Shown one piece after another: positions 34,019-46,468 of a stretch of 64,000 nt of DNA. The DNA is taken from assembly GCF_009796285.1 (NCBI RefSeq), contig NZ_CP047020.1, positions 6,448,001 to 6,512,000 of the forward strand, read 5' to 3'. This DNA is from Streptomyces broussonetiae (lineage in GTDB: Bacteria > Actinomycetota > Actinomycetes > Streptomycetales > Streptomycetaceae). A program made the translations under genes and the position numbers. Position 1 is the stretch's first letter. Each line of letters starts with the position of its first letter. Below the pieces are notes generated by a model. The model was not told the origin of the DNA. It did no database searches and was given only the letters and a program-made list of their open reading frames with translations.

Positions 34019-35869
34019 TCAGTGCGTGAGCACCAGCCGGGGGTTGTGGATCTCCAGCCAGGTCGCCAGGTCGAGCCAGCGCTCCAGACCGGTGCGGGCC
34101 GCGCCGTCGACGTCGGCGGCGGCCAGGGACACCGTCTGCTGCAGCCATTCCTGGTCGGTGAGCGCGTGCACGGCGTGCCCGCGGTCGGCGAGCAGCTCCT
34201 TGGCGTGCTGCTGGAGCGCGGCCGTGTAGAACGGGTCGCGGGTGGACGGGTAGGGCGCCTTGCGGCGCTCCACGACCGACCGCGGCAGCAGATCGGCGGA
34301 GGCCGCCCGCAGCAGACTCTTCTCACGGCCGTCGTACGTCTTCATCGACCACGGCGTGTTGAAGACGTACTCGACCAGCCGGTGGTCGCAGAACGGCACC
34401 CGGACCTCCAGGCCGACGGCCATGCTGAGCCGGTCCTTGCGGTCGAGCAGGATGCGCAGGTACCGCGTCAGGTGCAGGTAGCACACGAGCCGCATCCGTG
34501 CCTCGAACGCGTCCTCGCCGGCCAGCCTGGGGGCCTGTGCGACCGCCTCCGCGTACCGCCCGCGGATGTAGCCGGGCAGATCGAGGTCGGCCAGCAGGCC
34601 CTTGTCGTAGATCCCGGTGCCGGTGTGCGGGCTGGTCACATGCGTGTGGTCGACCCAGGGGAAGGTGTCGGCCTGCTGGGCCTCGGGCTGGTGCAGCCAC
34701 TTGTAGCCGCCGAACACCTCGTCGGCGGACTCCCCGGACAGGGCGACGGTGGAGCGTTCCCGGATGGCCTTGAAGAGCAGATAGAGGGAGTTGTCGGCAT
34801 CGCCGAACCCGGCCGGCAGGTCCTTCGCGGCCACCACCGCGCGCCGTACCGCAGGATCGGCCATGCTCTGGGCCTCGAACACCAGGTTCTCGTGCGCGGT
34901 GCCGCAGTGCGCGGCGGTCTCGATGGCGAACGGGGCGTCGGCGTCGGCGCGGAACGGGTCGGCGGCGAAGTTCTCCTCGTGCCGGGCGAAGTCGACGGAG
35001 AAGCTGCGGATCTGCTCACGGTCGCCCAGTTCCCGCTGGGCGAAGGCGGTGATGGCGCTGGAGTCCAGGCCGCCGGAGAGCAGGGTGCAGCGCGGCACGT
35101 CGGTGACCAGCTGGCGGCGCACGATGTCGGTGAGCAGCTCGCGCACCCGGGCGACGGAGGCGGCCGTGTCGTCGGTGTGCTCGGTGGCCTCCAGCTTCCA
35201 GTAGGTGTGGGTGCGTTCGCCGCCGCGGTCGACCGTGACCAGGGTGCCGGGCCGGACCTCCCGCATGCCGCGCCACACGGCGTGTCCGGGGGTGCGGATC
35301 CAGGAGAACGCCTCCCGCAGCCCGTCGAGGTCGACGGCCTTCTCCGCCTCGGGGTTGGCGAGAACGGCCTTGGGCTCGGAGCCGAAGAGCACCCCGTCCT
35401 CGGTCGGGTAGTAGTACAGCGGCTTGACGCCCAGGCGGTCGCGGACGAGCAGCAGCCGCTCGGTGCGGCCGTCCCAGACGACGAAGGCGTACATGCCGTT
35501 CAGCCGCTCGGCGAACGCCTCGCCCCACTCCAGGTAGGCGTGCAGCACGACCTCGGTGTCGCTGCGGGTGCGGAAGGTGTGGCCGCGGCGGCGCAGTTCG
35601 TCGCGCAGCTCGACGAAGTTGTAGATCTCGCCGGTGTAGGCGAGGGCGACCTCGCCGCCGCCGGTGTCGTAGGACATCGGCTGGCGGCCGCCCTCGATGT
35701 CGATGACGGCGAGCCGGCGGTGGCCGAGCGCCACGTGCGGCCGGGTCCACACGCCGGAGTCGTCGGGGCCGCGGCAGGCCATGGTCGCGGTCATGGCGGC
35801 GACCGCTTCCTGCTCCCGCTCCCTCGTCAGGTCTCGTCCGTAGGAGACCCAACCGGTCAGACCGCACAT
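34019..35869 (-). CDS. Asparagine synthase (glutamine-hydrolysing), cluster gene
   Basis: The 616-residue AsnB-type amidotransferase has the N-terminal nucleophile Cys2 (MCGLTGWV), the glutaminase domain to about residue 210, then a synthetase domain with the pyrophosphate motif LSGGLDSSAI. It may amidate a carboxylate, or use the adenylating domain for another C-N bond, as in antibiotic pathways. It is last in the leftward five-gene operon (cupin, MetRS-like, fused oxidase, FMN protein, this). The 55-base gap upstream is consistent with co-transcription. Full catalytic residues suggest an active enzyme. Confidence 0.92.
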   Translation of the reverse strand: MCGLTGWVSYGRDLTREREQEAVAAMTATMACRGPDDSGVWTRPHVALGHRRLAVIDIEGGRQPMSYDTGGGEVALAYTGEIYNFVELRDELRRRGHTFRTRSDTEVVLHAYLEWGEAFAERLNGMYAFVVWDGRTERLLLVRDRLGVKPLYYYPTEDGVLFGSEPKAVLANPEAEKAVDLDGLREAFSWIRTPGHAVWRGMREVRPGTLVTVDRGGERTHTYWKLEATEHTDDTAASVARVRELLTDIVRRQLVTDVPRCTLLSGGLDSSAITAFAQRELGDREQIRSFSVDFARHEENFAADPFRADADAPFAIETAAHCGTAHENLVFEAQSMADPAVRRAVVAAKDLPAGFGDADNSLYLLFKAIRERSTVALSGESADEVFGGYKWLHQPEAQQADTFPWVDHTHVTSPHTGTGIYDKGLLADLDLPGYIRGRYAEAVAQAPRLAGEDAFEARMRLVCYLHLTRYLRILLDRKDRLSMAVGLEVRVPFCDHRLVEYVFNTPWSMKTYDGREKSLLRAASADLLPRSVVERRKAPYPSTRDPFYTAALQQHAKELLADRGHAVHALTDQEWLQQTVSLAAADVDGAARTGLERWLDLATWLEIHNPRLVLTH

Positions 35870-36625: not shown

Positions 36626-38608
36626 TCACGGCGTGGCGCCCTGCCACTGCAGCAGGCACCGCACGGCGCCGGCCGCCTCTTCGGCGGCGCCCGGCGCCGT
36701 CTTGAAACCGGCTCCGGACCAGCACGCGGCCACCACGACCGGGGGCTCGCCGGGAAGAAGACCCACGAACGGCCCGTCCGGATGGTACAGGTCGGTGCCG
36801 AACCGGCCGCCCTGGAAGGCGACTTGGGCGATCCACGGCCAGCGGTGCCCGACCCCGGCACGAATGTGGGCGACCTGCTCGTCGGTGAGGGTGTCACCGC
36901 CCTCGGCCGGTACGTCCCACTCGTCGACCGGCCTGCCGGTCAGATGGCCGCCGGCGTACGGCCCGTCGAGCTGCGGGCGGCCCCAGATGCCCGAGGTCAG
37001 ATCGCTGACCGCGGGCAGCGGCCGGCCGGGGCCGCGGAAGAAGGCGTACCGGATGCGTTTGGTGCGCGGGGCCGGGCCGCCCGGGCGGGGCGGCAGCCGG
37101 TCGCCGAGCAGGGCGGCGGTGCCGCTGCCCGCGGCCACCACCGCACACCGTGCGGTCACCGAGCCCGCCGGGGTGCTCACCCGCACCCCGCGCCGGTGCG
37201 GCTCCAGGGCCGGCACGGACCCCGGCGGCAGCAGTACGGCCCCGTGCCGCACGGCCCGGGCGAGATACAGGGCGGCGGTACCGGCCGGGTCGGCGTAGCC
37301 GCCGCCCGGTTCCCAGACGGCCGCCGCGACGCCGCTCGCCGTCAAGTCGGGCCACCGCCCGGTCAGTTCGCCGGGGGTGAGCAGATCCGCCTTGATCCCG
37401 GCCGCGGTCAGCTCGCCGACCCCGCGTTCGGCCTCGGCGACGTCGTCCGGGCCGAGCAGCACCACCGAGCCGGTGCGGCGCAGGCCGGCCGACCGCGGCG
37501 GGGCCGCGGTGCCCCACAGCAGCTGGTGGCTGCGCACGGCCAGGGCGCGTACGACGGGCTCCGGCTCGTACGCCCGGACCAGGCCCCCGGAGAACCGGGT
37601 GGCCGACGCGGCCCGCGGGCCGGGGTCGGCGACCGCCACGGACAGGCCCGTCGCGGCCAGTTCGGCCGCGGTGGCGGCGCCCACCACGCCGGCGCCGACG
37701 ACCACCACGTCGTATCCGGTGACCGCCGCAGCGGCCGGGGCCGTGAGCCGGGTGACCGGTACGACCTCCCAGCCGGCGGCGTCGTCCGCGTCGACGGGAT
37801 CGCCGTCGGCGTCGAAGGAGAGATCCGCGGCGGCGCGTACGGCGGTCAGGAGCCGGTCACCGGTGGCGGCCGGGTCCGTGCGCAGGGCTCCTACGAGTGC
37901 CGCGAAGGCCGCGTCGACCTGCCGCTGCGGACCGCCGCGCAGTCGTACGACCCGGGCGGCATCGGCCAGTTCGCCGAGCAGGTCCGCGAATTCGGGCACG
38001 GCGCAGTCGTCGGTGAAGAACAGCGGGCCCTGCCGGCCCTCGGCGCGCAGGCGGTGCGCGGTGGCCGCGGCGCCGTGGTGGGTGCCGCAGACGACGAGGG
38101 GGTCGTCGGGTGCCGGCGGCGCCTTTCCGGAGCCGGCACCGAACCGCTCCGCCAGACGGCGGCCGTAGGCGCTGCCGTCGTCCACCACGGCCGGCACGGC
38201 GATGCCCAGGTCCTGCGCGGCCCGCCGTATCGCCCCCGGCTGGCCCGCGTCGTGCGGGCACCAGCGCAGCGCCCCGCCGCCGCCCCGGGCGAGCAGGTCC
38301 GGGTCGGTGGCCAGGGGCAGGAGCAACGGGAGTCCGGCCTGCCGGTACCAGGGCAACGCCCGTGCCGCGCCCAGGCTGTTGAAGTGGCCGACGACGGCGC
38401 GCACGCCGGCCCCGGGGTCCGCCGTCAGGGCGCGGGCGACCCGCTCGGCCTCCTCGGCGTCGCCCCGGTCGTCGTGGAACTCCCAGGCGAAACCCGGATC
38501 GGTGTGGCCGGCGGCGGCCCGGGTCAGCAGTTCGCCCCAGGCCGCCCGTGGCCCGCTGAAGGGGCCGACGACGGCGACACGCACCGCCCGGGGGTCCTGT
38601 CGCGCCAT
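36626..38608 (-). CDS. Fusion of a periplasmic-binding-protein-like domain to a FAD-dependent amine oxidase
   Basis: The first 300 or so residues resemble the type-1 ligand-binding fold of branched-chain amino acid binding proteins: VAVVGPFSGPR, then GLPLLLPLATDPDL, then FTDDCAVPEFADLL. There is no signal peptide. From about residue 303 a DAO-family flavoenzyme begins with the FAD motif VVVVGAGVVGAATAAEL and ends with GFKTAPGAAE. A cytoplasmic substrate-binding domain may deliver or sense an amino-acid-like substrate for oxidation. The start is ATG 38608, or GTG 38620 overlapping the upstream stop. It is translationally coupled to the MetRS-like gene. Confidence 0.82.
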   Translation of the reverse strand: MARQDPRAVRVAVVGPFSGPRAAWGELLTRAAAGHTDPGFAWEFHDDRGDAEEAERVARALTADPGAGVRAVVGHFNSLGAARALPWYRQAGLPLLLPLATDPDLLARGGGGALRWCPHDAGQPGAIRRAAQDLGIAVPAVVDDGSAYGRRLAERFGAGSGKAPPAPDDPLVVCGTHHGAAATAHRLRAEGRQGPLFFTDDCAVPEFADLLGELADAARVVRLRGGPQRQVDAAFAALVGALRTDPAATGDRLLTAVRAAADLSFDADGDPVDADDAAGWEVVPVTRLTAPAAAAVTGYDVVVVGAGVVGAATAAELAATGLSVAVADPGPRAASATRFSGGLVRAYEPEPVVRALAVRSHQLLWGTAAPPRSAGLRRTGSVVLLGPDDVAEAERGVGELTAAGIKADLLTPGELTGRWPDLTASGVAAAVWEPGGGYADPAGTAALYLARAVRHGAVLLPPGSVPALEPHRRGVRVSTPAGSVTARCAVVAAGSGTAALLGDRLPPRPGGPAPRTKRIRYAFFRGPGRPLPAVSDLTSGIWGRPQLDGPYAGGHLTGRPVDEWDVPAEGGDTLTDEQVAHIRAGVGHRWPWIAQVAFQGGRFGTDLYHPDGPFVGLLPGEPPVVVAACWSGAGFKTAPGAAEEAAGAVRCLLQWQGATP

Positions 38609-38612
38609 GACC

Positions 38613-40202
38613 TCAGTCACCGAAGACCGGGCGGTCGGGCACGGTCAGCGGCCGGCCCGCCGGGGGCGGGGTCAGCGCGGCGGCGTTCACCGCGCGGTCC
38701 GCTTCCTCGCCCAGCAGCGCGGCGAGCCGGGCCGCGCCGGCCGGCATGACGGGAGCGGCCCACGCCGACAGGGCGCCGGCGACGGTGAGCTGGGCGGTCA
38801 GGGCGGCCCGGTGGGCGCGGAGCGAGCGGTCGCGTTCGTGCGCGTGGACGAAACCGAAGTCGTCGGCGCTCGCGACGACCTCGTCCAGCAGGGCGACGGC
38901 GTGGCGCGTGTCGAAGCCCTCGACGCCGTACGCCTCGCGCAGCTCGGCCACGATGCGCTCCAGGCGGGCGTGCAGCCGCTGCCAGGCGGGGCCCGTGGGC
39001 CGCTCCTCGGGGACCCGGCCGTCGCTGTCGCGGGCGACGGCCGCGAACAGCCGCTCCAGCCAACCGTTCCACCGGGTGGTCAGCAGGGCCCGGGTGCGCT
39101 CGAGGTCGGCCCGGGTGAAGCTGGTCTGGCGGCCGTTCGGCCGGTCGGCGAGCACATGGTGGCGCAGGACGTCGGAGCCCGCCTCGGCGAGCGCCTCGTG
39201 GGCCCAGATGGCGTGCCGCCGGCTGGTGGAGAACTTCAGCCCCTCCAGCTGGTAGAACTCGTTGACCACGAAGGCCCGGGCCAGTGCGGCCCGGGGGTGC
39301 AGGGCGGCGTACAGGGCGGGGAACAGTACCGCGTGGAAGTAGCCGTTGTCGAAGCCGAAGAACTGCACGGGCGCCGGCCAGTTCTCCTGCGTGCGCTGCG
39401 CCTCGGGCAGCTCCCACAGATAGCCCGGGGCCATCTCGAACCACACATAGGCCCGCTGGTCCTCGAACCCGGGCACGGTCACCGGCACACCCCAGTCGCC
39501 GGGGTGGCTCACGGCGATCTCCGGCAGCCCGTCGGCCAGCATCCGGTCGCACAGGACCCGCAGATGCGGCGGCATGTCGACCTCGGCCCAGAACGCCTTC
39601 AGCCGGTCGGCGAACGGTGCCAGCGGGAAGTACAGCCGGGCGGCGTCACGGACCTCGGCCGGGGTGCCGCACACCGTGCAGTGCGGGTCGGCGAGGTCGG
39701 CGCAGTCGTTGGGCCGGCCGCACGGCTCGCAGGCGTTGCCGTTGGAGGAGGAGCCGCAGTGCGGGCACTTGCCCGTCAGGTACGCCTCGTACAGCCAGCG
39801 CTCGCACGGGGTGCAGTACGGCAGCGGGCGGGTGCGGGCGACGACGTGCCCGGCGTCGTACAGCCGCTCGAGGAAGTCCTGGACGTGGGCGCGGTAGCCG
39901 TCCTCCTTGCGCGGGTGAACCACCCGGTCGAAGCCGACCTCGGCCTGCCGCCAGACCCGGACGATGGACTCGCCGTAGCCGTCGGCGACCTCGTCGCCGG
40001 TGCGCCCGCCGTCCTTGAGGCCGCGCACCGGGACGTAGCTCTGGTGGTCGTCGAGGCCGGTGGTGTAGCGGACGTCGACGCCGTCGGCCAGGAGGAAGCG
40101 GCGCAGCACGTCACCGGCGACGTAGGGCCCGGCGACATGGCCGACGTGCAGGTCGCCGTTGGGCGTGGGCGGGGTGGCGGTGATCCAGACCGGAGCGTTC
40201 AC
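38613..40202 (-). CDS. Methionyl-tRNA-synthetase-like protein, probable half of a split hydrazine synthetase
   Basis: The 529-residue class I synthetase fold has the HIGH-type motif GDLHVGHV, zinc knuckles (CTPCERW, CPHCGSS, CEPCGRP, CTVCG), a KFSTSR motif in the KMSKS place, and a helical anticodon-type domain. It lacks the extras of a housekeeping MetRS. In known N-N-forming enzymes (Spb40, Tri28) such a domain is fused to a small cupin. Here the cupin is the gene just upstream, overlapping by four bases (GTGA). It probably activates the amino acid that receives the N-hydroxylated amine. The alternative, a resistance MetRS, fits the context less well. Confidence 0.85.
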   Translation of the reverse strand: MNAPVWITATPPTPNGDLHVGHVAGPYVAGDVLRRFLLADGVDVRYTTGLDDHQSYVPVRGLKDGGRTGDEVADGYGESIVRVWRQAEVGFDRVVHPRKEDGYRAHVQDFLERLYDAGHVVARTRPLPYCTPCERWLYEAYLTGKCPHCGSSSNGNACEPCGRPNDCADLADPHCTVCGTPAEVRDAARLYFPLAPFADRLKAFWAEVDMPPHLRVLCDRMLADGLPEIAVSHPGDWGVPVTVPGFEDQRAYVWFEMAPGYLWELPEAQRTQENWPAPVQFFGFDNGYFHAVLFPALYAALHPRAALARAFVVNEFYQLEGLKFSTSRRHAIWAHEALAEAGSDVLRHHVLADRPNGRQTSFTRADLERTRALLTTRWNGWLERLFAAVARDSDGRVPEERPTGPAWQRLHARLERIVAELREAYGVEGFDTRHAVALLDEVVASADDFGFVHAHERDRSLRAHRAALTAQLTVAGALSAWAAPVMPAGAARLAALLGEEADRAVNAAALTPPPAGRPLTVPDRPVFGD

Positions 40203-40594
40203 GCGCTCACCTCCGTGCCCTCGTTTTGCCGGGGCTCGTGCAGCGGCCAGTAGACCGAGAGCCAGGTCAGGGTCTGCGCGGTCGGGTTGTGCACGACGTG
40301 CTCCTTGTTGCGGGCCAGGACGAGCACGTCGCCGACGGTGAACTCGGCCTTCTCACCGGCGAGGTCGAGGCTGCCGGAGCCGGAGAGGATCACCATGACC
40401 TCGTCCTGGTCGTGGCAGTCGGGGTCCGAGGAGGCGCCGGCCGGCAGGAAGCAGGCCATACCGCCGATCGGCGGTTCCTCCTGGCTCTGCTGCCCCTCCT
40501 GGCCCTCCCGGGTCTGCCAGGGAATGATCCGCTGGCACGCCATGCCGAACTCGCTCTCGGCGGCGCCTTCATGTATCCGAAACTTGGTGATCAT
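40199..40594 (-). CDS. Small cupin, probable N-N-bond-forming partner of the MetRS-like protein
   Basis: The 131-residue single-domain cupin has metal-binding residues in CHDQDEV and in KEHVVHN, within the two cupin motifs. It corresponds to the separate cupin part of hydrazine synthetases, where a zinc-bound cupin joins an N-hydroxylysine nitrogen to the amino group of an activated amino acid. It is first in the leftward operon, and its TGA overlaps the MetRS-like GTG by four bases. The ribosome site before ATG 40594 is weak. Assignment rests on the adjacent N-hydroxylase and MetRS-like genes. Confidence 0.78.
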   Translation of the reverse strand: MITKFRIHEGAAESEFGMACQRIIPWQTREGQEGQQSQEEPPIGGMACFLPAGASSDPDCHDQDEVMVILSGSGSLDLAGEKAEFTVGDVLVLARNKEHVVHNPTAQTLTWLSVYWPLHEPRQNEGTEVSA

Positions 40595-40917: not shown

Positions 40918-42249
40918 ATGGGGAATCCGCGCGACAATTTCTCGCCGGTTTACGATGTCGTGGGAATCGGTTTCGGGCCGGCCAACCTGGCCCTGGCCAT
41001 CGCCCTTGAGGAACACGACGACAGCGCGCCACGCGACCAGGCGGTCACCGCACTCTTCCTGGAGCGCCAGCCGGCCTTCGGCTGGCACCGGGGGATGCTC
41101 ATCGACGGCGCCACGATGCAGGTGTCGTTCCTGAAGGATCTGGCCACCCTGCGCAACCCGACCAGCCGTTTCGGGTTCGTCCCCTATCTGCACGCACGCG
41201 GCAGGCTGGTGGACTTCATCAACCACAAGATCCTCTACCCCACGCGTGAGGAGTTCCACGACTACCTCGAGTGGGCCGCGGCCGGGGTCGACCACCTGGT
41301 CTCCTACTCCAGCGAGGCGACCGAGGTCCGTGCGGTCGGCGACCTGCTGGAAGTGGTCGTCCAGGGCCCCGGCGGCAGCACCGTGCACCGGGCGCGCAAC
41401 GTGGTCGTCGCCTGCGGGCTGCAGCCCCGGATGCCCGACGGGGTGAAGGCCGGCGCCAACGTCTGGCACAGCAGCGAGCTGCTGAACCGGCTCGCCGGGC
41501 GCAGCGCGCAGGCCCGCCGGTTCGTGGTGGTCGGCGCCGGGCAGAGCGCCGCGGAGGCGGCCGAGTACCTGCACCGCACCTATCCGCAGGCCGAGGTCGA
41601 GGCGGTCTTCGCCCGCTACGGCTACAGCCCGGCCGACGACAGCCCGTACGCCAACCGGGTCTTCGACCCCGAGGCCGTCGACGTCTACTACGACGCCGAC
41701 CAGGCCGCCAAGGACCGGCTGATGGCGTACCACCGCAACACGAACTACGCGGTGGTGGACCTCGATCTGATCGAGGAGCTGTACCGGCGCGCGTACCAGG
41801 AGAAGGTGCGCGGCCACGCCCGGCTGCACATCCGCGGCGTCAGCGAGGTCACCGACGTGCGCGACGAGGGCACCGGCGTCACCCTGCGGATCCGCTCACA
41901 GGCCACCGGCGCCGAGGAGACGGTCACCGCCGACGCGGCCGTCTTCGCCACCGGCTACGACGAACAGGACCCGGTGCCGCTGCTCGGCCCCCTGGCCCCG
42001 TACGTCTCCCGGGACACCGACGGACGGCTGCGGGTCGGCCGCGACTACCGGCTGAGCGTCGAGGGCCTCGGGGACGCCGGGATCTACGTCCAGGGCGGCA
42101 CCGAGCACACGCACGGCATCACCTCCTCGCTGCTGTCGATGGTCGCGGTCCGCTCCGGCGAGATCCTCCGCTCGGTGCTGGAGCACCGGGACGCGGCGAA
42201 GTACCGCGACGACGCCTCGCTCGCCCTGGAAGGCGCGGCGCATGACTGA
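40918..42249 (+). CDS. L-lysine/L-ornithine N-hydroxylase (FAD, NADPH)
   Basis: The 443-residue class B monooxygenase hydroxylates the side-chain amine of lysine or ornithine. It has the FAD motif GIGFGPANLAL, the substrate region MQVSFLKDLATLRNP, the NADPH motif VVGAGQSAAEAAEYL, the DDSPYANRVFDPE segment and the ATGYDEQDP loop. ATG 40918 is chosen for the AAGGGA site; the frame is open upstream without homology. With the cupin and MetRS-like genes it completes the first two steps of N-N-bond formation. It overlaps the next gene by eight bases. Confidence 0.9.
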   Translation: MGNPRDNFSPVYDVVGIGFGPANLALAIALEEHDDSAPRDQAVTALFLERQPAFGWHRGMLIDGATMQVSFLKDLATLRNPTSRFGFVPYLHARGRLVDFINHKILYPTREEFHDYLEWAAAGVDHLVSYSSEATEVRAVGDLLEVVVQGPGGSTVHRARNVVVACGLQPRMPDGVKAGANVWHSSELLNRLAGRSAQARRFVVVGAGQSAAEAAEYLHRTYPQAEVEAVFARYGYSPADDSPYANRVFDPEAVDVYYDADQAAKDRLMAYHRNTNYAVVDLDLIEELYRRAYQEKVRGHARLHIRGVSEVTDVRDEGTGVTLRIRSQATGAEETVTADAAVFATGYDEQDPVPLLGPLAPYVSRDTDGRLRVGRDYRLSVEGLGDAGIYVQGGTEHTHGITSSLLSMVAVRSGEILRSVLEHRDAAKYRDDASLALEGAAHD

Positions 42250-43324
42250 CCCCGTCCACCGGGCCGACGTGGTCGTGGTCGGCGCGGGTGTGATCGGTAC
42301 GGCCGTCTTCCACGAACTGGCCGCCCGCGGCGCCCGCGTCACCCTGGTCGAGCGGGACCGCGCCGGGCTCGGTACGACGGCCTGGAGCGGCGGCATCGTG
42401 CGCTGCTACCACGACGACCCGGCCCTGTCCGACCGGGCGGCGGCCGGCTGGCGCTACTTCCGGGACTTCACCGGGCACACCGGTGAACCGGCCGCCTTCC
42501 ACACCAGCGGGTTCCTGTACCTGCCGGCCCCCGAGCGCGTGGACCCTTCCCGCGCGGAGGCCGTCCGGCTCGGCGGCGAGCTGCCCGTGAGCTGGCTGGA
42601 GGCCGAGGAGGTGGCCAAGCGCTTCGGTCACCTGCTGGCAGGCGCGCCCGGCGGTGGAGCGGTGTGGGAGCCGGAGTCCGGCTGGCTGGACCCGGCCGAG
42701 GTGACCCGCGGTTTCCTGCGCGCCGGGCAGCGCCGGGGCGGCACGGTCCTCGAAGGCGTCGCCGTGCACAGCCCGCTGCGCGCTGCCGACGGCCGGATCG
42801 CCGGGGTGCGCACCACCTCCGGAGCGGTCCGGGCCGACCGGGTGGTCCTGGCCACCGGCGCCACCACCCCGCACCTGCTGACCAGTTGGGGACTGCAGCA
42901 CGACCTGTGGGCGCAGGCCGTCCAGGTCGAGCTGTACCGGCCCGACGCGCCCGTGGCCGGCCAACCCGCCTACACCGACGACGAGTTCGACGTCAACGGC
43001 AGGCCCGACCCGGACTCCGGCGGGGTGTACGTAGGACATCCGACGGGGGCCCGGCTGCCCTCGCCGCCCGGCCGGGAGCCGGTGGACGCGGCCCAGTCCC
43101 AGCTGGCCGCCACGGCCGCCGCCCGACGCTGGGGATGGTTCCCCGGCAGCCGTCACCTCGGCGGGCTGCGTGCCGCGGAGTGCTGGGCCCCGGACGGCCG
43201 GGCCCGTGTCACGGCGCACCCGGACGAGCCCGCGCTGCTGCTGGCCACCGGGTTCAACGGGGGCGGATTCAAGATGGCGCCCTGGGCCGCCGTCGAGATC
43301 GCCCGCCTGACCGGTCTGGCATGA
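42242..43324 (+). CDS. FAD-dependent amine oxidase (DAO family)
   Basis: The 360-residue flavoenzyme has the FAD motif VVVVGAGVIGTAVFHEL, a WSGGIVRCYHDD substrate loop and the C-terminal GFNGGGFKMAPWAA motif of glycine/sarcosine-type oxidases. In triacsin and s56-p1 pathways a similar enzyme oxidises the lysine-glycine hydrazine conjugate and frees hydrazinoacetic acid. It is translationally coupled to the N-hydroxylase gene. A second DAO-type enzyme is fused to a binding domain in the leftward operon, so the pathway may have two amine oxidations. Confidence 0.87.
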   Translation: MTDPVHRADVVVVGAGVIGTAVFHELAARGARVTLVERDRAGLGTTAWSGGIVRCYHDDPALSDRAAAGWRYFRDFTGHTGEPAAFHTSGFLYLPAPERVDPSRAEAVRLGGELPVSWLEAEEVAKRFGHLLAGAPGGGAVWEPESGWLDPAEVTRGFLRAGQRRGGTVLEGVAVHSPLRAADGRIAGVRTTSGAVRADRVVLATGATTPHLLTSWGLQHDLWAQAVQVELYRPDAPVAGQPAYTDDEFDVNGRPDPDSGGVYVGHPTGARLPSPPGREPVDAAQSQLAATAAARRWGWFPGSRHLGGLRAAECWAPDGRARVTAHPDEPALLLATGFNGGGFKMAPWAAVEIARLTGLA

Positions 43325-43373: not shown

Positions 43374-44312
43374 ATGAGTCAGCAACGGCCCGACGGAACC
43401 AGGGAGATCAAGGGGGTTCTGCCGGTCGTCATCATGCCGTTCACCGAGGACGGCGCCCTCGACGAGGACGACTTCCTCGCCCAGACGGAGCACATGTTCG
43501 ACGTCGGCTGCGACGGGTTCGTGGTCGGCCAGGTCTCCGAGGTGCTGCGCCTCACGCACACCGAGCGGCTGCGCGTCGCCGAGCTGTGCGCGAAGGGCGC
43601 CGCCGGGCGCGGGGTGTCCGTGATGAGCACGGGCGCCGAGACGCCCGAGGCGGCCGTCGAGTACTCCCGGCACGCCGAGTCCGTCGGCGTGGACGCCCTG
43701 CTCGTCATGCACCCGGCCACGATCCCGCTGGACGAGCGCGGGATGGTCGAGTACTTCACGCGGGTCGTGGAGTCGGTCCGGATCCCCGTGATCATCCACC
43801 ACGCCAAGAGCCTGGCCAAGCAGCCGCTGACCATCGGCGCCCAGGCCCGGATGCTGGAGAAGTACGGCCCCGACCGGGTGCTGTTCAAGCCCGAGGCCCA
43901 GCCGTCCCCGCCCAAGGTCAGCGAGCTGCGCGACGCCACCGGCGGCCGGGCCCGCATCTTCGAGGGCGACGGCGGCATGATGCTCCTCGACTGTCACAGC
44001 CGGGGCCTGGCCGGCACGATCCCCGCCACCGAGATCGCCGAGATCGTGGTGACCCTGTGGCGGCTCCTGGAGGCCGGCGAGCGGGAGAAGGCCGAACGGC
44101 TCGCCCACCCGCTGTCGTACCTCATGTGCCACATGATGAACAGCACCGACTACTACCTGTCGATCGCCAAGCGCTTCCTGAAAGAACGCGGCCTGATCAA
44201 GACCACCCATGTCCGTGGTCCGAGCCGCCACGTCCTCGACGACGAGTCCTGGACCGAGGTCAACCGCACGTACCAGCACCTGCTCACCCTTGCCGAGGAG
44301 CTCGCCCCATGA
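43374..44312 (+). CDS. Dihydrodipicolinate-synthase-family aldolase
   Basis: The 312-residue class I aldolase barrel of the DapA/NanA superfamily makes or splits pyruvate-type adducts through a lysine Schiff base. The lysine is in VLFKPEAQ. The usual Tyr of the proton relay lies where VMHPATIP is found here, so the classical tyrosine is missing and the substrate differs from that of DapA. The GxTGE motif reads GQVSE. ATG 43374 follows GGAGAG. The stop overlaps the mutarotase ATG by four bases. It is a cluster enzyme building or trimming a keto-acid skeleton. Confidence 0.85.
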   Translation: MSQQRPDGTREIKGVLPVVIMPFTEDGALDEDDFLAQTEHMFDVGCDGFVVGQVSEVLRLTHTERLRVAELCAKGAAGRGVSVMSTGAETPEAAVEYSRHAESVGVDALLVMHPATIPLDERGMVEYFTRVVESVRIPVIIHHAKSLAKQPLTIGAQARMLEKYGPDRVLFKPEAQPSPPKVSELRDATGGRARIFEGDGGMMLLDCHSRGLAGTIPATEIAEIVVTLWRLLEAGEREKAERLAHPLSYLMCHMMNSTDYYLSIAKRFLKERGLIKTTHVRGPSRHVLDDESWTEVNRTYQHLLTLAEELAP

Positions 44313-44698
44313 AGAACCACGCCTTCACCATCCGCCTTCGGGACGAGGCCGCTGCGGAGAAGTACATCGCGCTGCACAAGGAGGTGTGGCCCGAGATCGT
44401 CGGACCGGGCGGCGCCCTGGAGACGATCGGCGTCCGCAAGCTGCAGATCTTCCACATCGACCCGCTCACGCTCTTCATGTACGTCGAGGCCGAGGACCAC
44501 TTCGAGCCGGTGCGCGACTTCCTGCGCGCCAACGACCTGCACCCCCGGGTCCAGGAGTGGGACGACATGATGCACGACGGCGGCGGCAGCCTCCTGGTCC
44601 GCCACCCGGGCAACGACGGCCGCCTCAACTGGGCGCCGATGCGCCGCATCCACCACGTCGACTTCACCAACACGCTGCCGGACCTGGAGGACAAGTGA
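44309..44698 (+). CDS. L-rhamnose mutarotase-like protein (RhaM family)
   Basis: The 129-residue ferredoxin-like protein resembles RhaM/DUF718. It has the catalytic-type segments HKEVWPEI and HIDPLTLFMYVEAED, and the C-terminal W near the active site. Family members interconvert anomers of rhamnose and similar sugars. Its four-base overlaps with both neighbours suggest it handles the same cyclic intermediate as the aldolases. Rhamnose itself is unlikely, because no rhamnose genes are near. Confidence 0.8.
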   Translation: MKNHAFTIRLRDEAAAEKYIALHKEVWPEIVGPGGALETIGVRKLQIFHIDPLTLFMYVEAEDHFEPVRDFLRANDLHPRVQEWDDMMHDGGGSLLVRHPGNDGRLNWAPMRRIHHVDFTNTLPDLEDK

Positions 44699-45729
44699 GC
44701 GCCGTGGCCCGCACGGACGTCACCGTCCTGGACTGCACACTGCGGGACGGCGGTTACTACACCAACTGGGAGTTCGAGGACGCCCTCGTAGAGGAGTACC
44801 TCAAGGCCTGCGCGGCCACCGGCGTGGACGTGGTCGAGCTGGGCTACACCCAGTTCACCCCGAGCGACCGGGGCGCCTACGGCCGCTACCCCTCGGGGGG
44901 CACCCCCGCCCTGCGCGACGCCCTGCCCGACGGCCACGGCCTGCGCTTCGCCGTCATGCTGGACGCCACCGCACTGGCCGAGGTCCCGGCGGCCGAGGCC
45001 GGCCCGCGGCTGCGCCGGCTGCTGGCCGACGGCCCGCTGCCCGTCGACCTGGTGCGGGTGGCCGTCCACCACAGCAGGACGGCCGGCGTCACCGACGCCG
45101 TCGAATCGCTGCGCGGGGCCGGCTTCGGGGTCTGCCTGAACCTCATGCAGGTCGACCTCGCGACCCCCGCCGAAGTCGCCGAACTGGTCCGCCTGGTGGC
45201 CGGCATGGGCCCGCTGGAGTCGGTCTACGTCGCCGACTCCCTGGGCTCCCTGCACGCGCCCCGGATCGCCGAACTGGTCGACCAGTTCAAGGTCGGCCAG
45301 ACCGCCCCCGTGGGTCTGCACGGCCATGACAACCAGGGCTTCGCGCTGCACAACACCCTCGCCGCGGCCCAGGCGGGCGCCACCTGGCTGGACGCCACCG
45401 TCCTCGGCATGGGCCGGGGCGCGGGCAACACCAGGACCGAACAGCTCCTGGCCGCGCTCGGCACCGACCAGCAGGCGCTGCAGCCGATGCTGGACCTGGT
45501 GGCCCGTCGCTTCGAACCGCTGATGACGAAGTACCGCTGGGGCGCCAGCGCCCTGTACGCCATCGCGGGCATGCGCCGGATCCACCCGACCTACGTCCAG
45601 CGCCTGGAGGAGAGCCTGGAGCGGGACGTGGAGGTCAAACTGCGCGCCCTGGACTTCCTCGCCCGCAACCGCAAGACGTCGTTCGCCCCGGCGTCGCTGG
45701 AGGACGCACTCCGCCATGCCGCTGTCTGA
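44695..45729 (+). CDS. DRE-TIM aldolase (HMGL-like domain)
   Basis: The 344-residue barrel has the metal-binding LDCTLRDGGYY motif at residues 10-20 and the HGHDNQGFALHN motif further on, as in 4-hydroxy-2-oxovalerate aldolases and related Claisen or aldol enzymes. It most resembles the aldolase-catalytic-domain proteins found in surface polysaccharide loci. It lacks the dimerisation domain of LeuA. The GTG start overlaps the mutarotase stop by four bases and the stop overlaps the HAD gene by 14. It probably extends or cleaves a keto-acid chain. Confidence 0.85.
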   Translation: MSAVARTDVTVLDCTLRDGGYYTNWEFEDALVEEYLKACAATGVDVVELGYTQFTPSDRGAYGRYPSGGTPALRDALPDGHGLRFAVMLDATALAEVPAAEAGPRLRRLLADGPLPVDLVRVAVHHSRTAGVTDAVESLRGAGFGVCLNLMQVDLATPAEVAELVRLVAGMGPLESVYVADSLGSLHAPRIAELVDQFKVGQTAPVGLHGHDNQGFALHNTLAAAQAGATWLDATVLGMGRGAGNTRTEQLLAALGTDQQALQPMLDLVARRFEPLMTKYRWGASALYAIAGMRRIHPTYVQRLEESLERDVEVKLRALDFLARNRKTSFAPASLEDALRHAAV

Positions 45730-46468
45730 CCACGCCGGCACGCGCCTCGAGCAGGCGCTGGCCACTCACCGCCTCGTCGTGTTCGACCTCGACGGTGTGC
45801 TCGTGGACTCCAACGAGCTGAAGGTGGAGTGCATGCGCGAGGCGCTGGCGGAGTTCGGTCCGGAACTCGTGGACCCCTACGTCCACGAGTTCCGCCGGAC
45901 CTTCGGCCGCTCCCGCCGCGAGCACTTCCTCGCCTTCCACCAGGACCATCTGGGCGGAGAACAGGCCACGGGGGAGAGATTCGAGACGTTCTACGAGCGC
46001 TGTGCGGGTGGCTACGCCGAACTGCTCGCCGAGCGCTACCCCAAGGCACCGCTGTGCCCCGACGCCGACCGGCTGGTGCGCGCCCTGTCCGCGCGCGGAC
46101 TGCCGCTGTACGTGGCCACCGGCACCCTGACCGCCGAGGCGGAACGGGTCCTGGACGGGCACGGGCTGGTGGGCGAGTTCCGGGCCGTGCTCGGCGGCGA
46201 GGAACCCAAGGCGCGGCGCCTGGCCGCGGCGCTCAGCGCCGAGGGCGCAGCGCCCGGCGAGGCGGTCCTGCTCGGCGACTCGCGCCAGGACCTGCTCGCC
46301 GCCCAGGCAGTCGGCATGGGCTTCGTGCTCGTCACCGGGCACGGATTCTTCCCGCCGGCCCAGGTGCTCGACGGCGCGGACGGGCAAAATGCGCTGGTGG
46401 CGGCCGGATTGGACCCCAGCGGCTTGCTGACCGGCACAGTGGCGTACGAGGGTCGTGCGGGGCGCTGA
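45716..46468 (+). CDS. HAD-family phosphatase
   Basis: The 250-residue haloacid-dehalogenase-fold protein has motif I FDLDGVLVDS, motif II TGT in LYVATGTLT, a motif III Lys (GGEEPKARR) and motif IV LLGDSRQD. The cap type fits beta-phosphoglucomutase or phosphoglycolate-type phosphatases. It probably removes a phosphate from a product of the aldolase genes. It is translationally coupled to the aldolase by a 14-base overlap. Confidence 0.85.
   Translation: MPLSDHAGTRLEQALATHRLVVFDLDGVLVDSNELKVECMREALAEFGPELVDPYVHEFRRTFGRSRREHFLAFHQDHLGGEQATGERFETFYERCAGGYAELLAERYPKAPLCPDADRLVRALSARGLPLYVATGTLTAEAERVLDGHGLVGEFRAVLGGEEPKARRLAAALSAEGAAPGEAVLLGDSRQDLLAAQAVGMGFVLVTGHGFFPPAQVLDGADGQNALVAAGLDPSGLLTGTVAYEGRAGR

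Follow-up and report, generated by a model that had tools for sequence, protein, structure and literature searches.

Why should a fold known from exported amino acid receptors be joined, in a single chain and without a signal peptide, to a flavin oxidase? This question is raised by a gene in the 64,000-nucleotide stretch of Streptomyces broussonetiae DNA analysed here (the window), which a preliminary description had placed at 36626-38608, correctly and without naming a strand, as a cytoplasmic fusion of a LivJ-type binding-protein fold with a complete DAO-type flavoenzyme. The gene lies on the minus strand, with an ATG at 38608, a stop at 36626 and no internal stop across 660 codons. A GTG at 38620 would lengthen the protein by 4 residues; we assign the start to the ATG because the nearest relatives (L011, L012 and L027) share an identical MARQ start at the same codon. 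The fusion, abbreviated PBP-DAO here, is composed as follows:

36626..38608, minus strand: PBP-DAO fusion gene, a single open frame of 660 aa, with homologues
37742..38590, minus strand: type-1 periplasmic-binding-protein (LivJ-type) domain, residues 7-289, without signal peptide
37715..37741, minus strand: interdomain linker, residues 290-298, with low model confidence and a dN/dS of about 1
36671..37714, minus strand: DAO domain (monomeric sarcosine oxidase/glycine oxidase-like), residues 299-646, with R345 and K636 kept

The fusion is real and no assembly fault. A frameshift or missing stop at the junction, which the preliminary description placed near 37700 and named as what would speak against the fusion, is ruled out by the open frame and by the conservation of the fusion in homologues, the actual border being at about 37715-37742. 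An assembly fault is excluded since 28 distinct loci from Streptomyces, Micromonospora and one further genus (each assembly counted once) carry the pair, including a second full-length fusion in the same genome, 54% identical and encoded in a second cluster at 8.0 Mb.

Residues 7-289 match LivJ, LivK and Atu2422 (phmmer, 2.6e-9), and a profile built from the binding domains of the fusions finds the LIV-binding protein at an E-value of 2.4e-22 over 223 positions. A Pfam search with the full 660-aa chain reported no receptor domain at E 0.01; with residues 1-298 alone Peripla_BP_6 reaches 38.4 bits against a gathering score of 31.7, and 11 of 11 homologous binding domains match this family at E <= 0.1. 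The AlphaFold model of the isolated domain (mean pLDDT 88, pTM 0.86) aligns with the leucine-bound Brucella receptor 4n0q over 274 residues (Z 25.0, rmsd 3.0), showing a complete two-lobed type-1 fold, and fits the Atu2422 receptor nearly as well. Pfam score, profile match and structure alignment rule out a chance resemblance to LivJ. The signal peptide and lipobox of an exported ABC-transporter binding protein are absent, no hydrophobic leader being found in MARQDPRAVRVAVVG; residue 9 of this sequence already belongs to the first strand of the fold, which leaves no space for a signal peptide. The domain comprises about 290 aa and is about 50 residues shorter than LivJ (about 345 aa). Four homologues (L007, L008, L049 and L050) carry long low-complexity insertions at one fixed place of this domain, after the helix ending near residue 155.

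Residues 299-646 match the Pfam family DAO (PF01266) with 134.7 bits and 7e-39, covering profile positions 1-351 of 353, the closest solved structures being monomeric sarcosine oxidase (MSOX) and glycine oxidase. MSOX R52 and K348, which we take to be the pair binding the substrate carboxylate, align with R345 and K636 of the fusion, both invariant in 15 aligned fusions. At the position of MSOX Cys315, presumably the residue of covalent FAD attachment, the sequence alignment places Gly604, the cysteine not being kept. In a DAO tree that excludes Spb39, NngL, Tri27 and Apy10, the fused DAOs form one clade (SH-aLRT 99) and the other MetRS-linked DAOs fall into several deep clades. With both domains full, signal-less and in one 660-aa frame, the proposal of a cytoplasmic fusion holds.

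The two domains are connected by a segment of different character. In the full-length model (pTM 0.62), which does not fix the relative domain placement, pLDDT is below 50 at residues 289-295 of the linker. Comparing the window with L011 or L027, dN/dS is 0.29-0.36 for the binding domain and 0.30-0.34 for the DAO domain, and about 1.0-1.1 for the linker (13 codons, residues 286-298, window against its two closest relatives). The low values in both halves show that purifying selection keeps both domains, but not the linker.

The gene neighbourhood places the fusion within a hydrazine-type cluster:

34019..35869, minus strand: asparagine-synthetase-like (AsnB-like) amidotransferase, common to the nearest clusters and the paralogous cluster of the own genome
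35925..36638, minus strand: pyridoxamine-phosphate-oxidase-like (Pyridox_ox_2) protein, start codon uncertain
38613..40202, minus strand: MetRS-like amino acid ligase gene, ending 4 bp upstream of the fusion ATG
40199..40594, minus strand: stand-alone cupin, matching RHS1 (5UQP) and overlapping the MetRS-like gene by 4 bp
40918..42249, plus strand: lysine N6-hydroxylase, closest solved relative MbtG
42242..43324, plus strand: stand-alone second DAO (DAO2), of a separate clade and present in only some clusters
43374..44312, plus strand: DHDPS-family aldolase, conserved in the closest clusters
44309..44698, plus strand: small RhaM-like protein (provisional name, given by eye), conserved in the closest clusters
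44695..45729, plus strand: HMGL-like aldolase
45716..46468, plus strand: HAD-family phosphatase

The 4 bp gap and the 4 bp overlap let the cupin, MetRS-like and fusion genes look like one transcription unit. With DAO2, two aldolases and the HAD phosphatase, the window cluster belongs to a richer type. The second cluster of the own genome (L010, 7,995,000-8,014,900) is a diverged hydrazine-type cluster built on the same core, with its own PBP-DAO, DAO2, aldolases and AsnB-like gene. We rejected an anti-phage defence reading for want of any PADLOC match, and an albofungin-type cluster because the fusion loci, read over about 20 kb, contain no type-II ketosynthase motif.

RHS1, which the window cupin matches, is a cupin with demonstrated N-N bond formation alongside a MetRS-like partner (PMC8664883), and the conjugate of the hydrazinoacetic acid pathway is cleaved by its third enzyme, Spb39, a homologue of DAO (PMC10445470, PMC11705231, PMC13274452). 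In several clusters of the present family, L098-L100, L102 and L103 among them, no DAO was detected besides the fused one, which therefore has to carry out the oxidase step there, provided that the pathway includes it. The fused enzyme is thus a candidate for the Spb39 step and probably acts, like Spb39, as oxidase of the lysine-hydrazine conjugate. The surroundings of L099 encode an HMGL-like aldolase, an amino acid permease and a Pyridox_ox_2 protein. The pathway would run from the lysine N6-hydroxylase via the MetRS-like ligase and the cupin to the fused oxidase. Most likely the DAO domain would bind, through R345/K636, the carboxylate at the alpha-hydrazino-acid end of the conjugate and oxidise an adjacent N-C bond in the manner of Spb39, so that a hydrazino acid and an aldehyde would be set free.

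The distribution of the fusion follows this context closely. The preliminary description had suggested looking for co-occurrence of fusion homologues with the cupin and MetRS genes, and this was found: at the fully read loci, cupin, MetRS-like gene and fusion follow in this order on one strand with a lysine N-hydroxylase nearby, except at L017 (Micromonospora sp. KC606), where MetRS-like and cupin genes lie about 8 kb from the fusion on the opposite strand. L017 also has a weak second MetRS-like match downstream, and the same strain carries another copy of the module, L020. The reading of gene order leaves out L024, a 3.4 kb contig covering no more than MetRS-like gene and fusion, and the neighbours of L067. 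The latter locus (NZ_CP109439.1, Streptomyces sp. NBC_01483) encodes an 83% identical fusion on a 1.56 Mb record labelled as a mobilizable plasmid. A scan of 84,980 species genomes gave 18 more fusion loci from Streptomyces and Micromonospora, using two short binding-domain peptide patterns that more distant fusions may escape, and further surveys including plasmids gave eight more, one of these in a second genus of the same family. A Saccharothrix MAG (L029) was discarded as a fusion locus, holding only a fragment without an intact frame.

MetRS-like loci were gathered from 394 genomes of the class and 392 of the genus, and about 20 kb were read around 58 selected loci. By profile search, one MetRS-like branch has the binding domain throughout, and no locus of another branch has it. 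A tree of 77 MetRS-like rows unites all 32 with the binding domain, five duplicate assemblies among them, in one clade, the 45 without it lying outside (SH-aLRT 87). The fusion is co-inherited exclusively with one MetRS-like clade, as a single change. Members of the sister branch, a common one, about 50% identical to the MetRS-like protein of the window (L051 and L105-L115, from Streptomyces genomes G150, G911, G774 and others), have no cupin, lysine hydroxylase or DAO within about 10 kb. Among 296 genomes across the phylum, both halves occur in one protein in the window's own genome only, which rejects a wider habit of receptor-DAO fusion. The earlier impression that the architecture is uncommon is borne out. 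Four other long frames with related receptor domains have no DAO match in the same frame and were judged by eye to be pentameric-channel-like (twice), kinase-like and ordinary lipoprotein-like; among these actinobacterial frames, L159 and L160 join the receptor domain to pentameric-channel-like proteins and L157 to a protein-kinase-like frame.

One natural variant separates the halves. In S. lonarensis (L026 and L104, which are one contig) two overlapping genes take the place of the single frame, with the break exactly between the domains. The DAO of this species nests inside the fused clade of the DAO tree, which disfavours the split as the ancestral state and suggests either a secondary fission or an error in sequencing. 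Unless the latter applies, the separate halves mean that covalent fusion is dispensable there, and the split suggests that the binding domain can act without a covalent tether.

To which ligand the binding domain may respond is indicated by its cleft. We mapped cleft residues via a sequence alignment with the LIV-binding protein, whose contact residues, with LivJ S79, T102 and E226 as amino-acid head-group residues, we take as the reference; the fusion has S78 for S79, T101 for T102, D200 for E226 and Y148 for Y150. The head-group residues are kept (S78 in 31/31, T101 in 30/31 and D200 in 31/31 rows, Asp replacing Glu), and W24, F76, N77, S78, L99, T101, Y148 and D200 are each conserved in at least 30 of 31 rows. 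This level is reached by 8 of the 10 mapped contact positions compared to 58 of 268 other positions (Fisher p = 2e-4), so that the putative amino-acid-binding cleft is nearly invariant. The GHFNS motif, which includes F76 and N77, is common to the fusion cleft and Atu2422, for which the PDB holds one entry with alanine, the leucine entry being the F77A mutant. The match of the motif to a receptor bound to alanine, and to leucine only as F77A, favours a small amino acid as predicted ligand; the lysine-hydrazine conjugate is large and therefore predicted to fit poorly.

We favour a model according to which the N-terminal Venus-flytrap domain would bind a small amino acid, and ligand binding would alter the activity of the attached oxidase, matching release of the N-N product to how much of a pathway amino acid is available. 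We put the probability of this main reading, i.e. a flavin oxidase of a lysine-hydrazine pathway fused to an intracellular amino-acid receptor gating the oxidase, at roughly 0.45. With equal reserve we consider that a flytrap receptor may have been relocated to the cytoplasm, where it would control or feed the biosynthetic flavoenzyme into which it is built. The other cytoplasmic proteins of this fold known to us, AmiC and LacI-type regulators, are sensors; this, the small size of the predicted ligand and the split gene of S. lonarensis are our reasons for favouring a sensor over a carrier. The preliminary description had thought of substrate delivery or allostery for an unstable hydrazine intermediate. 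As to the intermediate this has to be revised, because the species reported as highly unstable is the ester from the MetRS-like enzyme, captured by the cupin, and not a hydrazine reaching the oxidase (PMC8664883).

A hand-over of substrate is less likely than the sensor role and on the whole improbable: here the binding domain would take up the conjugate after the cupin step and pass it to the tethered oxidase, or hold the released aminoadipate semialdehyde. The conjugate retains the free alpha-amino acid head from lysine, which the kept S78, T101 and D200 could recognise, the linker is flexible, and the succession of cupin, MetRS-like gene and fusion would suit a physical complex; however, the cleft is similar to that of small-amino-acid receptors, a Phe occupying the side-chain position, the conjugate is large, and we are not aware of any flytrap domain that passes substrate on to an enzyme fused to it. 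Preferential conservation of the cleft weighs against the idea that the binding domain has no ligand and serves the MetRS-cupin complex just as a structural or docking element, because docking alone does not predict such conservation. Complete co-inheritance with one MetRS-like clade and the cytoplasmic location would suit docking, to which we assign a small chance.

Two further alternatives concern the chemistry of the oxidase. The DAO domain might oxidise the hydrazine to a hydrazone, or aromatise a ring, with both halves of the conjugate being kept as in a pyridazomycin-like product and the binding domain still sensing or binding an amino acid. The asparagine-synthetase-like amidotransferase and the two aldolases of the cluster would fit this, as would the nearest named relatives with the cluster, S. 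samsunensis and S. antioxidans, which we assume to belong near S. violaceusniger; the pathway to pyridazomycin is described as poorly understood (PMC7347517). The amidotransferase is, however, outside most fusion clusters, the hydroxylase is closer to the lysine-specific MbtG than to ornithine enzymes, and no cluster is tied to pyridazomycin, making this route rather doubtful and somewhat less probable than a hand-over of substrate. Less probable still, and on a par with docking, is a free-hydrazine route, in which fused DAO and DAO2 would between them break both N-C bonds, leaving the asparagine-synthetase-like enzyme to transfer hydrazine: the window cluster and its nearest relatives encode two DAOs and an AsnB-like protein, and Afn14 is reported to transfer hydrazine in albofungin (PMC11705231) as a precedent, but DAO2 and AsnB are missing from many fusion clusters.

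Compared to known systems, parts and pathway are familiar and the arrangement is a new architecture on a known pathway. The FAD oxidases Spb39, NngL, Tri27 and AzsM of hydrazinoacetic acid pathways share the context of lysine N-hydroxylase, cupin and MetRS-like protein and the DAO superfamily; in these pathways cupin and MetRS-like domain are fused in one protein, whereas the window has two genes. NngL is a stand-alone 41.1 kDa homologue of Spb39, aligning to it over 343 positions (PMC13274452); in contrast, the 660-aa protein of the window has a binding domain of about 290 residues in front of the DAO. In the RHS1-type pair of Rhodococcus jostii, as in the window, cupin and MetRS-like protein are separate and accompanied by a lysine hydroxylase (PMC8664883), the Rhodococcus cluster having been found via a saccharopine-dehydrogenase homologue for the cleavage step, a position taken here by PBP-DAO. 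Albofungin orfDEF/abf6 likewise bring together a cupin, a tRNA-synthetase-like protein, an FAD oxidoreductase and a lysine monooxygenase (PMC9469721), the fusion loci read differing by having no type-II ketosynthase motif.

The LivJ/LivK and Atu2422 receptors (Peripla_BP_6) have the same two-lobed fold and head-group residues also kept in the fusion, the domain of which is, unlike these, signal-less, shortened (about 290 instead of about 345 aa) and joined to an enzyme. AmiC, a cytoplasmic binding-protein fold sensing small molecules, is intracellular as well; it regulates a separate antiterminator, whereas the partner in the fusion is the attached flavoenzyme. We found no published PBP-DAO fusion in the open-access literature; an earlier notice of the pairing by Aravind and colleagues is possible, as their 2010 text mentions binding proteins among MetRS-like gene neighbours without further detail (PMC2922099).

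Should the receptor indeed gate or feed the oxidase, it would belong to the few exported-type amino-acid receptors known to us that serve as intracellular control domain of a biosynthetic enzyme, and release of reactive hydrazine products would depend directly on how much of an amino acid is present. The isolated binding domain offers a simple soluble target, and its ligand would indicate an amino acid important in the pathway. The combination of cupin, MetRS-like protein and PBP-DAO serves as a genetic marker for a distinct branch of hydrazine-forming clusters.

Two loci add to the picture of domain and module. In genome G076, a relative of the binding domain stands alone and without a signal peptide at another locus (L156:9526-10461; profile E 1e-34). 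Its cleft motif is degenerate, with GHSDR for GHFNS, and as judged by eye it lies beside a P450, what appears to be an exporter and perhaps a PLP enzyme. In genome G155, the core module at L066:1669-14723 has as neighbours two ATP-grasp proteins and a protein of the inositol-phosphatase family, together with genes that by eye seem to serve sulfate activation, suggesting that the core module is reused in different cluster types.
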